From NCBI RefSeq assembly GCF_028066395.1, contig NZ_JALCBM010000012.1, forward strand, positions 2,872 to 59,285: a DNA stretch of 56,414 nucleotides, in the 5' to 3' direction. Every line of letters begins with the position of its first letter. The stretch's first letter is position 1. Both the position numbers and the translations under genes were made by a program. Shown here in pieces: positions 7,546-36,008 of this stretch. The notes under the pieces were generated by a model that had not been told where the DNA came from, made no database searches, and saw only the letters and a program-made list of their open reading frames with translations. The DNA is from Ruegeria sp. GTDB taxonomy: Bacteria > Pseudomonadota > Alphaproteobacteria > Rhodobacterales > Rhodobacteraceae.

Positions 7546-8357
7546 GCGCCGTGCCCCGCAGGCCAGTCGTGGGTTTCATCAAACCCGTCCCGCGCCCAGC
7601 GATAAAGCGCATCGTAAAGATGCATCCCGGCCTCCAACTGCGCGTGGTCATCGCGGTATTGCCGGGACAGACCGACCGACAGGGCCAGCAGCCCCGCCGC
7701 CTCGGGCGCCAGATCGTGGCGGTTGGTGTCAGCGGCGCGGATGATCTGTGCCAACCGGTCCAGCGCCGGGATGTGCAGAGAGAATTCATCCAGCATCGTG
7801 TCAAAAGTGCAGGCGTCGCCGCGATGGCTCCAGAACGTGTTTTCGACATCGAAGGGGGTGGCGTTGAAATGATCCGCGACGCCCTGAACTTCGGCGGGCG
7901 CCACGAACAGGAACCGCGCCTGCGGGTCGACAAAGCGGCGGATCAGCCAAGGGCAGGCGATGCGGTCGATCTTGGGGCGGTGGCGGGTGACCCATAGGGT
8001 GCTGCCCTGCGCAGGAGCGGGCAAGGCGGCAAAGGGCACCATCGGCGCGTCCGGCAGATCGCGCCAGGCATACTGCCCACCCTCAAGATATTCGGCCTGA
8101 TGTCCCTGACCACGCAACCATGACACCGCGCCCTGGCTGAGTTTCTTTCCTCTTTGGCAAATGATCACACAGGGCTGATCGCCGATCCGCTGACGGATGC
8201 CGTCAAGATCATCAAAGGGCAGGCGGAATGATCCGGGGATCAGCCTCGGGTCGTCGTCAAAATCGGCATCGGTGCGGATGTCGACCAGCACCGGCGCGGT
8301 GGGGGTTCCGATCAATCGGGTCAGTTGGCGGGGGGTGATCGCATTGGCGGCGGCCAT
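7542..8357 (-). CDS. chrB: Rhodanese-ChrB fusion, chromate resistance protein
   Basis: Two domains. Residues 8-105 are rhodanese-like (PVLVDIRTDADF; active-site loop CQRGKKLS with an intact cysteine). Residues 120-265 match the ChrB C-terminal domain (WVTRHRPKIDRIACPWLIRRF, FVAPAEVQGVADHF, FDTMLDEF). ChrB-type proteins are linked to chromate sensing or reduction; the rhodanese part could handle sulfur or oxyanion chemistry. First gene of a chrB-chrA operon. The ATG at 8357 is chosen as the first plausible start; the 131 bp upstream should carry the promoter, but I see no clear operator. Confidence 0.88.
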   Translation of the reverse strand: MAAANAITPRQLTRLIGTPTAPVLVDIRTDADFDDDPRLIPGSFRLPFDDLDGIRQRIGDQPCVIICQRGKKLSQGAVSWLRGQGHQAEYLEGGQYAWRDLPDAPMVPFAALPAPAQGSTLWVTRHRPKIDRIACPWLIRRFVDPQARFLFVAPAEVQGVADHFNATPFDVENTFWSHRGDACTFDTMLDEFSLHIPALDRLAQIIRAADTNRHDLAPEAAGLLALSVGLSRQYRDDHAQLEAGMHLYDALYRWARDGFDETHDWPAGHGA

Positions 8358-8488
8358 GGCATGTCTCCTGTCATCAGGTCGGATACATGCGAAACTTGGG
8401 CTGCCGCCTCACGGGGTGTTCGCAAGCTTACCCCTTGCGCCCCAGCTAACGCGGAAGCCCCCAAAGCGTCAAGATCACCCGCCCCGGA

Positions 8489-9017: not shown

Positions 9018-9329
9018 AATAATGCAGGTTTCTGTTGCCAGGTACCTGCGAACCCCGCCTTACGCGGCTAGGCGCAAGGGCTTAGATTTCGGTCTTGTTA
9101 CTGCTTACGCAGCAACTGCAACCGGAGCACGATTGTCGTTTGCAATTGTACTAGTTTCGCCGATAACGGTGGCAGACAGCCGGGACAAAGCTAACCCCTT
9201 TAGACGTTCGTCGATCCTGTTTCGGCCCCAAAATCCTCAAACGAAGGATGGTTGGTGGAGCCGCCGGGTACCGCCCCCGGGTCCGATCCGCTTATTACGA
9301 GCGCGTTTATGTCCATAGTCCCGAAGGAC
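9018..9329 (-). ncRNA. ssrA: Transfer-messenger RNA, circularly permuted two-piece form
   Basis: Rescues stalled ribosomes. On the minus strand the acceptor piece comes first (about 9329-9253), ending in CGGCTCCACCA with the CCA at 9255-9253. Then comes a 23-base spacer (9252-9230) that can form a small hairpin, and then the coding piece starting GGGGCCGAAACAGGATCGACG at 9229. The first seven bases of the coding piece pair with the acceptor 3' strand to give a 7-bp acceptor stem with G3-U70, the alanine identity pair. A T-arm of CCGGG/CCCGG closes an unusual GGCGGTA loop. The tag frame (9143-9105) reads ANDNRAPVAVAA-stop. The acceptor piece opens with GTCC-TTCG-GGAC. Ends are approximate; a T6 run at 9002-8997 may mark termination. 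A 98-codon plus-strand frame here is spurious. Confidence 0.95.
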
Positions 9330-9335
9330 ATATCC

Positions 9336-9364
9336 TATATAGGTGAGGTTCCGGGCAGATGCAA
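9336..9364 (-). promoter_or_regulatory. ssrA promoter
   Basis: Minus-strand -35 TTGCAT (9364-9359), 17-base spacer, -10 TATATA (9341-9336), placing transcription start near 9329, just before the UUCG hairpin of the acceptor RNA. It lies 40 bp after the stop of the upstream gene, so ssrA has its own promoter. Confidence 0.7.
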
Positions 9365-9404
9365 ACCCGGAATGGCTTGCTGCGTGTTACATGATCCCAA
9401 TGGG

Positions 9405-30558: not shown

Positions 30559-34949
<4,391 letters not shown>

Positions 34950-34966
34950 CCGAAAAATCCTTAAAA

Positions 34967-34991
34967 GTTCACAAATGTTCTCAAAAAGTTC
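34967..34991 (+). promoter_or_regulatory. SOS (LexA) box
   Basis: GTTC (34977-34980), seven bases, GTTC (34988-34991): exactly the GTTC-N7-GTTC LexA site of alphaproteobacteria. A third GTTC at 34967-34970 stands 6 bases before, and an inverted GAAC lies at 35015. It is in an AT-rich 112-bp gap after recG and 70 bp before a small membrane-peptide gene. Confidence 0.7.
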
Positions 34992-35061
34992 TTTACTGAA
35001 TGCGCAAGATATGAGAACAAAAGGTCAACAAAGGATTAAAGCCTGACCCGGAGGTGAGACC

Positions 35062-35184
35062 ATGCTGACCCAGATCAAGACCGCATTCAGCCGTTCGCAA
35101 GCCACGATTTTGCAGGATGCCGCGGGTGTTGCGTCGCTTGTGGTGATGCTGGTGGTTGCCCTTCACCTGCCGCTGGGGTTCTAA
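35062..35184 (+). CDS. Small membrane peptide, probably SOS-induced (40 aa)
   Basis: Unrecognised 40-residue peptide: an amphipathic, polar N-terminal half (MLTQIKTAFSRSQATILQDA) and one hydrophobic helix (residues 22-40, GVASLVVMLVVALHLPLGF). A strong ribosome site GGAGGTGA lies 5 bases before the ATG, codon choice is native, a LexA-type box lies upstream and a strong terminator downstream, so it looks like a deliberate one-gene transcript. By analogy with Caulobacter SidA, a 29-residue SOS-induced inner-membrane division inhibitor, it may delay division after DNA damage; the sequence link to SidA is not shown. Confidence 0.72.
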   Translation: MLTQIKTAFSRSQATILQDAAGVASLVVMLVVALHLPLGF

Positions 35185-35332
35185 GCCTTTCTGCCTGCGA
35201 TCTCGTGCCGACAAAAACCGCGCTTGTTTCCCCATCTCAAGCAAGGGTGACCTGCCTGTCCCAAACCCCTTGAAGGGGCCAGCCTCGGCCCCGCGCGGAA
35301 TTCCGGATCCCACACGAGACACGCACAACCTG

Positions 35333-35371
35333 CCGCCGCCCTTTCCGCCCGGAAGGTGCGGCGGTTTTTTT
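35333..35371 (+). terminator. Strong rho-independent terminator
   Basis: Outer stem CCGCCGC (35333-35339) with GCGGCGG (35358-35364), inner pairing CCTTTCC with GGAAGG, then T7 (35365-35371). It ends the small-peptide transcript and lies just before the convergent marC stop. The 148 bp between the peptide stop and this hairpin hold no further frame, only a CCCCTTGAAGGGG hairpin near 35268. Confidence 0.85.
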
Positions 35372-36008
35372 ACAATTGCCCGGTTTTCATGATTTCCAGC
35401 ATGGCCGACAGCACGGAATTCACCGCAACCGAGGCCAGGATCATCCCCATCACCCGACTGATGATCGCCGCACCGGAATGGCCGATCCAGCGGATAATCG
35501 GGTCCGCCAGCAGCATCAGCACAAAGGCGATGGCCAGCACCGACAGCATCACCAGCGCAGTGATCCCCTGATCTGTGGCGCTGTAGCGATTGTTGTCGGT
35601 CAGGATGACAATTGCCAGCATCGCCCCGGGTGAGGCCAGCGAGGGCACCGCCAGCGGAAAGATGGCTGGGTTGGTCTTGTGCATCTTGTCTTCGACATCT
35701 TCTTCGGCCTGCCGCTGTTCGACATCCTGCTTGCTTTCACCAAAGATCATCGTCAGGGCAAAGAGGAACAGAATGATCCCACCTGCCACCTGGAATGAGT
35801 TGAGGCCGATATCCAGCGCCTCGATCAGCAACTGACCAAAGACCAGGAAGAACAGCAAAACACCGGCACTGACCAGCGCGGCCAGCAATGCGGTTTTGCG
35901 GCGGGCGGTGGCCTCGATCCCGGCGGTGACCGCGATGAAGACGGGTATTGTGCCAATCGGGTCGATCACGACCCAGAGCGTGACAAAATGTTCCAGCAAA
36001 TTGTTCAA
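35370..36008 (-). CDS. MarC-family integral membrane protein
   Basis: 212 residues with six hydrophobic helices in two halves. WVVIDPIGTIPVFIAVTAG near residue 12 and LAVPSLASPGAMLAIVIL near residue 118 are the paired MarC signatures. A hydrophilic cytoplasmic loop rich in Glu and Asp (residues 92-112) separates the halves. Despite the name, members have no proven drug-resistance role. Monocistronic by context: 59 bp from the NifU-like gene upstream. Confidence 0.88.
   Translation of the reverse strand: MNNLLEHFVTLWVVIDPIGTIPVFIAVTAGIEATARRKTALLAALVSAGVLLFFLVFGQLLIEALDIGLNSFQVAGGIILFLFALTMIFGESKQDVEQRQAEEDVEDKMHKTNPAIFPLAVPSLASPGAMLAIVILTDNNRYSATDQGITALVMLSVLAIAFVLMLLADPIIRWIGHSGAAIISRVMGMILASVAVNSVLSAMLEIMKTGQL

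Follow-up and report, generated by a model that had tools for sequence, protein, structure and literature searches.

What does a single LexA-type box signify when it stands in front of an open reading frame (ORF) of only 40 residues? The question is raised by a locus of Ruegeria sp., lying in a stretch of 56,414 nucleotides (nt) from contig NZ_JALCBM010000012.1 (positions 2,872 to 59,285 of the forward strand; hereafter, the window), where the sequence GTTCTCAAAAAGTTC precedes a predicted membrane peptide encoded behind recG. Based on comparison of its operator, reading frame, RNA fold, and distribution, we take this locus to be a probable SOS unit of transcription that belongs to the core of the Rhodobacteraceae. 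The reading that we favor as a whole, and that we regard as on balance probable, is that of a LexA-repressed Rhodobacteraceae transcript that encodes a one-helix membrane SOS effector, inhibits division in the manner of SidA, and ends in a 3' portion resembling a small RNA (sRNA). Within the window, the unit is laid out as follows.

32859 to 34949, plus strand: upstream ORF of 696 residues from the ORF list, ending at 34949, which we take, by recognition, to be recG
34967 to 34970, plus strand: first GTTC half-site, 6 nt ahead of the exact box, located from the aligned promoters
34977 to 34991, plus strand: exact LexA box GTTC-N7-GTTC, GTTCTCAAAAAGTTC, 70 nt ahead of the ATG
34992 to 34997, plus strand: putative -35-like element TTTACT (consensus TTTACa), its promoter role read from the aligned promoters
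35015 to 35029, minus strand: degenerate LexA site in reverse orientation (plus-strand sequence, GAAC-N7-CAAC) over the presumed -10 region, from the promoter alignment
35050 to 35057, plus strand: ribosome-binding site GGAGGTGA, from the sequence
35062 to 35184, plus strand: ORF of the predicted 40-residue one-helix membrane peptide, including the stop codon, with its ATG at 35062
35185 to 35331, plus strand: conserved branched RNA of the 3' untranslated region (UTR), from covariance models R1 and R2, covariation, and alignment-free checks, with the C-rich stretch CUGCCUGUCC at 35252 to 35261
35332 to 35371, plus strand: intrinsic terminator, stem plus T run (T run at 35365 to 35371), from the fold

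Does the box mean anything by itself? It is the sole exact GTTC-N7-GTTC match in the whole window, and the three GTTC half-sites that lie 3' of recG begin at 34967, 34977, and 34988, the last two forming the exact box. Shuffled copies of the window give a chance expectation of 1.59 exact boxes per window, with at least one in 81 of 100 shuffles. In the whole genome, there are 168 exact matches versus 85 for the pattern read backwards, a control suggesting that about half of the 168 are due to chance. A chance box before a spurious ORF is thus just what these counts could produce, and because a single exact box is near the chance expectation, conservation was needed for it to mean anything. It is conservation that refutes this explanation, to which we now give practically no credence: among 152 homologues, each from a different genome, 148 have an exact GTTC-N7-GTTC 66 to 119 base pairs (bp) before the start, and the frame behind it is conserved as well. 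An earlier, sequence-only reading of this DNA had pointed to an exact box 70 bp before a short gene after recG, and in both respects it was correct. In 146 of the 152 loci, recG lies directly upstream on the same strand.

The conserved promoter region is more elaborate than one box. The consensus of the 148 aligned promoters reads tttGTTC.CaaATGTTCTcAaAAAGTTCTTTACa, then a spacer, then ataTGAGAACAAAg.ggCAACA. In the first half-site, the G, T, T, and C are each kept in 133 to 139 of the 148, and the exact box directly abuts the -35-like TTTACa. A reversed GAAC-N7-NAAC occurs at the same offset in 132 of the 148 promoters (in 145 at any offset searched) and in its exact form, GAAC-N7-GAAC, in 8. 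A simple consensus scan of either strand found no sigma-70-type promoter near the peptide, and we therefore infer where the -35 and -10 elements lie. The recA gene of the same genome is preceded by an exact box in the orientation of the reversed site, about 55 bp before the first ATG of its ORF, and lexA has an exact box just ahead of its ORF. When a pattern for the extended promoter was scanned over a collection of genomes from 84,980 species, at least 118 stretches matched; among the 118 matches listed, the peptide lies just downstream in 117, recG lies upstream in 116, and both are present in 115. By this comparison, the operator of the locus is LexA-type and conserved, and the unit is predicted to be under LexA control; LexA would bind there, and DNA damage would induce the unit. 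Two overlapping exact LexA boxes, 11 bp apart, lie ahead of the peptide in four homologue loci (L107, L192, L195, and L198). Elsewhere in the Ruegeria genome, an AT-rich stretch (G000:C27:29666-29691; L026, L027) also carries two overlapping exact GTTC-N7-GTTC and is possibly a further SOS promoter.

How widely is the unit held? The sequence-only reading had proposed a search for conserved homologues after recG, and such searches recovered the 152 homologues used here. A single-sequence peptide search matched 121 of 198 family genomes, whereas profile A1 (30 rows) matched 167. Profile A5 (51 diverse rows) matched 229 of 244 genomes in an order sample, all of one family, and only 5 of 385 genomes in a class sample were matched, all from the same family, by A1 and A5 alike. 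That this family is the Rhodobacteraceae follows from the record titles behind the promoter pattern, several of which state it outright; the 80 titles listed of the 118 name, among other genera, Roseovarius, Sulfitobacter, Ruegeria, Leisingera, Celeribacter, and Rhodovulum. The homologue set draws 150 members from the 167 A1-matched genomes and 2 from the class sample. The 17 A1-matched genomes outside the set are G048 and 16 without listed coordinates, and the region behind recG in those 16 has the peptide in 15 and not in 1. The gap between recG and the peptide in the 146 loci is 50 to 315 nt (median, 112). A true recG match is present in 25 of the 31 profile-negative genomes; a recheck downstream of recG covered 24 of these (all except G172) and found a divergent peptide match at an E value of <1e-3 in 12, of which 10 have the exact box, and three doubtful matches (E values of 0.015 to 0.11). 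The suggestion that this might be a new SOS peptide is thus strongly supported by comparison, through its operator, its frame, its near-universal presence behind recG in the family, and the lack of matches in the rest of the class sample. As a separate observation, the order search matched the peptide twice in each of four genomes (G187, G655, G720, and G760), possibly from duplicated copies.

Is the peptide made, and what kind of peptide is it? A 40-residue ORF behind a strong ribosome site had been described from the sequence, and the same arrangement recurs among the homologues: the start codon chosen is ATG in 152 of 152, a GGAG, GAGG, or AGGA ribosome site precedes it in 138 (a weaker 3-mer in 13 and none in 1), and the length is 40 residues in 122, the rest spanning 36 to 45 except for one of 75. 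In the peptide alignment (n = 151, the 75-codon L147 being excluded), Asp19 is kept in 151, Gly22 and Leu34 in 149 each, and Pro37 in 137, and the codons of the conserved residues vary synonymously. The median ratio of nonsynonymous to synonymous change (pN/pS) is 0.28 over 44 pairs, which were selected at ≥70% amino acid identity, a selection that favors low values. The frame, on whose conservation the sequence-only reading had staked its case, is therefore conserved and, to judge from these comparisons, under strong purifying selection and probably translated.

The AlphaFold2 model of the window peptide has helices at residues 2 to 11 and 13 to 39 (mean pLDDT, 87.2; pTM, 0.47), and the second of these agrees, as a prediction, with the single transmembrane helix read earlier from the sequence. 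With 40 residues, the predicted helix, and the LexA-type box, the product is, as modeled, a short single-transmembrane peptide of the SOS type. Because the mean net charge is +1.0 over the first 18 residues and about 0 over the last six, the topology is suggested to be N terminus in and C terminus out. We rejected membership in a known protein family: the window peptide has no match in Pfam and one in NCBIfam (14 bits versus a cutoff of 124), a profile search of the PDB gave one match at an E value of 0.62, and among 51 diverse peptides, one matched one Pfam family (E value of 0.0095) and four NCBIfam families were each matched by one or two members (best E value of 0.0048), scattered weak matches that we take to be chance.

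A peptide of this form admits more than one role. Many small membrane proteins act as regulatory partners of other membrane proteins. Could the target then be a transporter, a protease, or a signaling protein that matters in repair, rather than the divisome? One conserved helix with a polar or small face would suit such a regulator. Nothing specific speaks against it, but no neighboring gene hints at a partner (the window's convergent neighbor adjoins the peptide in only 5 of the 152 loci), and we hold this proposal to be highly improbable. Alternatively, might the peptide act on the membrane itself? DinQ, too, is small, has one helix, and is under SOS-type control (PMC3567139, in part), and a membrane-active SOS peptide like TisB or DinQ would lower membrane potential and ATP and so slow the cell, with the RNA restraining its translation. 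However, a single copy at a fixed place in most genomes of the family and an invariant Asp/Gly face would fit a specific partner better than a pore former, and no antisense gene was recognized by a consensus promoter scan and inspection by eye; we see a membrane-active role as possible, though improbable. We continue to favor the division-inhibiting effector.

What is the remainder of the message for? The 3' UTR of about 150 nt, on which the sequence-only reading was silent, folds into a branched RNA that is conserved, covaries strongly, and has loops rich in C, and the structured RNA occupies the 3' half of the transcript. The motif CTGCCTGC is present in 93 of the 152 loci versus 3.0 in first-order random copies, and CCTGTCCC is present in 87 versus 1.8. 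An intrinsic terminator with a comparable stem and T run is found in 126 of the 152 loci, the distance from the stop codon to the end of the T run having a median of 175 nt. In the window, the terminator lies some 150 to 190 nt past the stop codon, its stem beginning at about 35332 in the fold; the claim that the gene has its own terminator was right, although the terminator lies farther downstream than the piece of DNA for which it was made. A simple terminator scan of the window listed only a shorter stem that overlaps the folded one.

When the sequences are folded singly, they have in common three hairpins enclosed by a closing stem. A plain MAFFT alignment of the 3' UTRs followed by RNAalifold recovered hardly more than the terminator and a short helix or two, because the stems vary in sequence; a structure-encoded alignment indicated the architecture, and covariance models were then built. 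Model R1, built from 10 sequences, gave 84 matches over 100 loci at E values up to 1 and 67 rows at E values of ≤0.01, 8 of them seeds; some of its weakest matches lie away from the 3' side of the peptide (for example, second ones in L116, L128, L094, L070, and L059). In the 54-row alignment A4, standard pairs fill 87.7% of pair cells, versus 69.8% in shuffled and 34.8 to 43.4% in slid controls, and both sides change in 242 cells, versus 60.5 in shuffled ones, while RNAalifold predicted 22 pairs on the 84-row alignment A3, all with compensatory cells. Since A3 and A4 were both fitted to the covariance model and are biased toward it, alignment-free checks were run. The closing stem forms in the single-sequence fold of 83 of 100 UTRs with the 5' UGCC motif, and the mean fold z score is -2.65 in 104 UTRs versus -0.65 in 102 recG segments; the fold of the antisense strand, too, is better than that of shuffled copies (mean z score, -1.69). 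The inner stem of the second hairpin is weakly supported, with 57% of cells paired.

The second model, R2, matches 81 of the 100 loci and 31 of 52 others at an E value of ≤0.01, that is, 112 of 152, and as 54 of the 112 served to build it, the independent tally is 58 of 98. All of its matches are on the strand of the peptide, and 110 of the 112 start -12 to +104 nt from the stop codon. In the Ruegeria genome, R2 finds a single locus (E value of 3.9e-20; next best, 0.10), and it finds none in 8 recG-downstream regions that lack a useful peptide match. In the L147 locus, where the ORF extends to 75 codons and the LexA-type promoter is missing, the RNA model nevertheless matches. The 5' arm carries CUGCC in 52 of 54 rows, and a single C-rich motif recurs in the arm and the loops (CUGUCCC, CUGCCUGUCC, and UGCCUC). 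In the window RNA, the first hairpin, which does not form in the single-sequence fold, is assigned by homology. A known RNA family was rejected as an identity: Rfam 15 gave a best E value of 5.5 over positions 34900 to 35450, and a scan of the whole window had no match there at gathering scores. By comparison across loci, then, the RNA fold is conserved, and the RNA would most likely function by base-pairing through its C-rich loops or by protecting the message. Beyond the terminator, a convergent ORF (35370 to 36008, minus strand), presumably MarC-like by recognition, ends at 35370; it seems to have been inserted in the group to which the window belongs, given its rarity next to the peptide elsewhere. 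A repeat search of the peptide region found none.

Could the RNA reach the division machinery directly? We examined ftsZ because DinR, a LexA-controlled 3' UTR sRNA, blocks the ftsZ ribosome site. The ftsZ leader ends in ACAGGCGGACAGAGC-ATG in the Ruegeria genome and in 12 genomes of the same genus, and parts of CUGCCUGUCC have ACAGGC and GGACAG as their exact complements. Among other leaders, 0 of 126 from the genome and 1 of 702 from relatives carry, no more than 25 nt from the start, two nonoverlapping 6-mers complementary to CUGCCUGUCCC; these leaders come from mechanical ORF calls, and the ftsZ leader was already known when the motif test was devised. In other families, GGACAG is missing from all 8 ftsZ leaders inspected (60 nt before candidate starts), and the 13 leaders that have it are those of close relatives in a single genus. 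In an accessibility-weighted pairing scan, ftsZ ranks only 12th of 127, and the site that pairs best, at -58 to -46, is off the ribosome site. With the motif for it and the energy rank against it, ftsZ as the target of the RNA is a tentative and rather improbable lead. All 13 genomes of the genus that were compared (L397, that of the window's own genome; L381 to L390, L392, and L393) have GGCGGACAGAGC-ATG as the ribosome site of ftsZ, a site that is unusual for the mechanical gene set of the window's genome.

These results bear on two further proposals. If the RNA were the main product, a LexA-controlled, DinR-like 3' UTR sRNA that represses the mRNA of ftsZ or of other genes, and the peptide were auxiliary to it, then its conservation and covariation, the two ftsZ-leader 6-mers that are rare in other leaders, and the way in which DinR acts on ftsZ in Klebsiella (PMC10907235, in part) would all fall into place. 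Yet the energy rank of ftsZ with a best site off the ribosome site, the close relatedness of the 13 leaders together with mechanical ORF calls and a post hoc motif test, and strong purifying selection on the peptide itself make this distinctly unlikely. Or does the unit possess two arms, the peptide stopping septal wall synthesis and the 3' RNA silencing ftsZ at the GGACAG site? We consider this unlikely; if true, it would be a bifunctional, family-conserved SOS mRNA that arrived independently at the solutions of both SidA and DinR.

In the model that we favor, a LexA-repressed transcript with a SidA-like effector, LexA in the undamaged cell would occupy the exact box abutting the -35 element and, in reversed orientation, the weaker site over the -10 region, thereby blocking the promoter. 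Upon DNA damage, RecA would trigger the cleavage of LexA, and a single transcript of about 340 nt (its start being inferred) would then be made, ending at its own terminator. We posit that its translation yields the 40-residue peptide, inserted as one transmembrane helix with the N terminus inside and with the D-x-x-G motif, formed by the invariant Asp and the near-invariant Gly, at the cytoplasmic end of the helix. The peptide would most likely bind a membrane partner via its conserved face and restrain septation, as SidA does in Caulobacter. The 3' half, a branched RNA, would most likely either base-pair via its C-rich loops in an sRNA-like action or protect the message. A search for SulA (PF03846) gave 0 matches in the genome of the window, which is 89.7% complete, with a positive Escherichia coli control, and where SulA has no match, a very small SOS membrane peptide with one helix is plausible as a counterpart of SidA in kind, by analogy.

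Several observations weigh against this model. The division-inhibition step is drawn by analogy, and the absence of SulA counts for less in a genome that is 89.7% complete. As for the RNA, 40 of the 152 loci have no R2 match at an E value of 0.01, 54 of the 112 matches are the building set, and the first RNA loop of the window itself deviates (UUUCCCC). In addition, 9 of the 24 rechecked recG-downstream regions have no peptide (one of the nine matches at an E value of 0.7), and 15 of the 244 order genomes have no peptide match; the unit is therefore not indispensable.

What would such a unit mean for the field? Few lineages have known SOS checkpoints of division. The Rhodobacteraceae include the marine roseobacters and laboratory phototrophs, and in the open-licence literature of PubMed Central (PMC), we found neither an SOS division checkpoint for this family nor a report of the peptide or the RNA. 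What is new here is a predicted small SOS membrane effector with an added structured RNA, one without a match in Rfam 15. The locus is a single, easily deleted candidate in most of the sampled genomes of the family and may be how division pauses during repair. Two ideas are directly testable, namely, division arrest after DNA damage and the use of one SOS mRNA as both peptide and RNA. Apart from this unit, the window contains an ordinary alphaproteobacterial two-piece transfer-messenger RNA (tmRNA) gene (9021 to 9368, minus strand; Rfam, 298 bits) and, close to it, a match to the chrB-a cis-regulatory RNA (8355 to 8439, minus strand; 56.3 bits versus a cutoff of 43.9).

How does the unit compare with known systems? 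In Dinoroseobacter shibae, LexA sites lie at the lexA, recA, dprA, and pde2 promoters and at flagellar, gene transfer agent, and pilus promoters, and the main text of that study does not mention recG or SidA (PMC6473078). DinQ of E. coli is an SOS-regulated toxic single-transmembrane peptide that depolarizes the membrane; DinQ and TisB share SOS control and a single transmembrane segment with the predicted peptide (PMC3567139, in part, where TisB is only named). They differ in having antisense RNAs, of which the promoter scan and inspection recognized none here, whereas the present unit is a fixed single locus in most genomes of its family. ChvR of Caulobacter crescentus, an RNA induced by mitomycin C that has been shown to pair through two stem-loops (PMC6237742, in part), is comparable as an alphaproteobacterial RNA, the loops of the present RNA being candidates for pairing, but it is transcribed from a promoter of its own that lacks an SOS box, while the RNA described here forms the 3' portion of an mRNA preceded by a LexA box.

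Two systems come closer. DinR of Klebsiella pneumoniae is the 3' UTR sRNA of dinI, a LexA-controlled mRNA, and blocks the ftsZ ribosome site (PMC10907235, in part). In common with such SOS 3' UTR sRNAs, the unit has a structured RNA 3' of an ORF under a LexA box, ending at a terminator, with LexA-type control and an sRNA-like end being predicted here; in contrast to DinR, the message here codes for a predicted membrane peptide, its structured RNA has multiple hairpins, and the link to ftsZ is only a motif lead. SidA of C. crescentus is an SOS-induced inner-membrane peptide of 29 residues that acts on FtsW and that interacts with FtsN in a two-hybrid assay (PMC4211646, in part). Likened by description, the new peptide is predicted to be, as SidA is, a very short inner-membrane peptide under LexA-type control in an alphaproteobacterium; it differs in having 40 residues, a place behind recG, a family-wide distribution, and a structured 3' RNA. 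By analogy, SidA is the nearest functional precedent for this unit.
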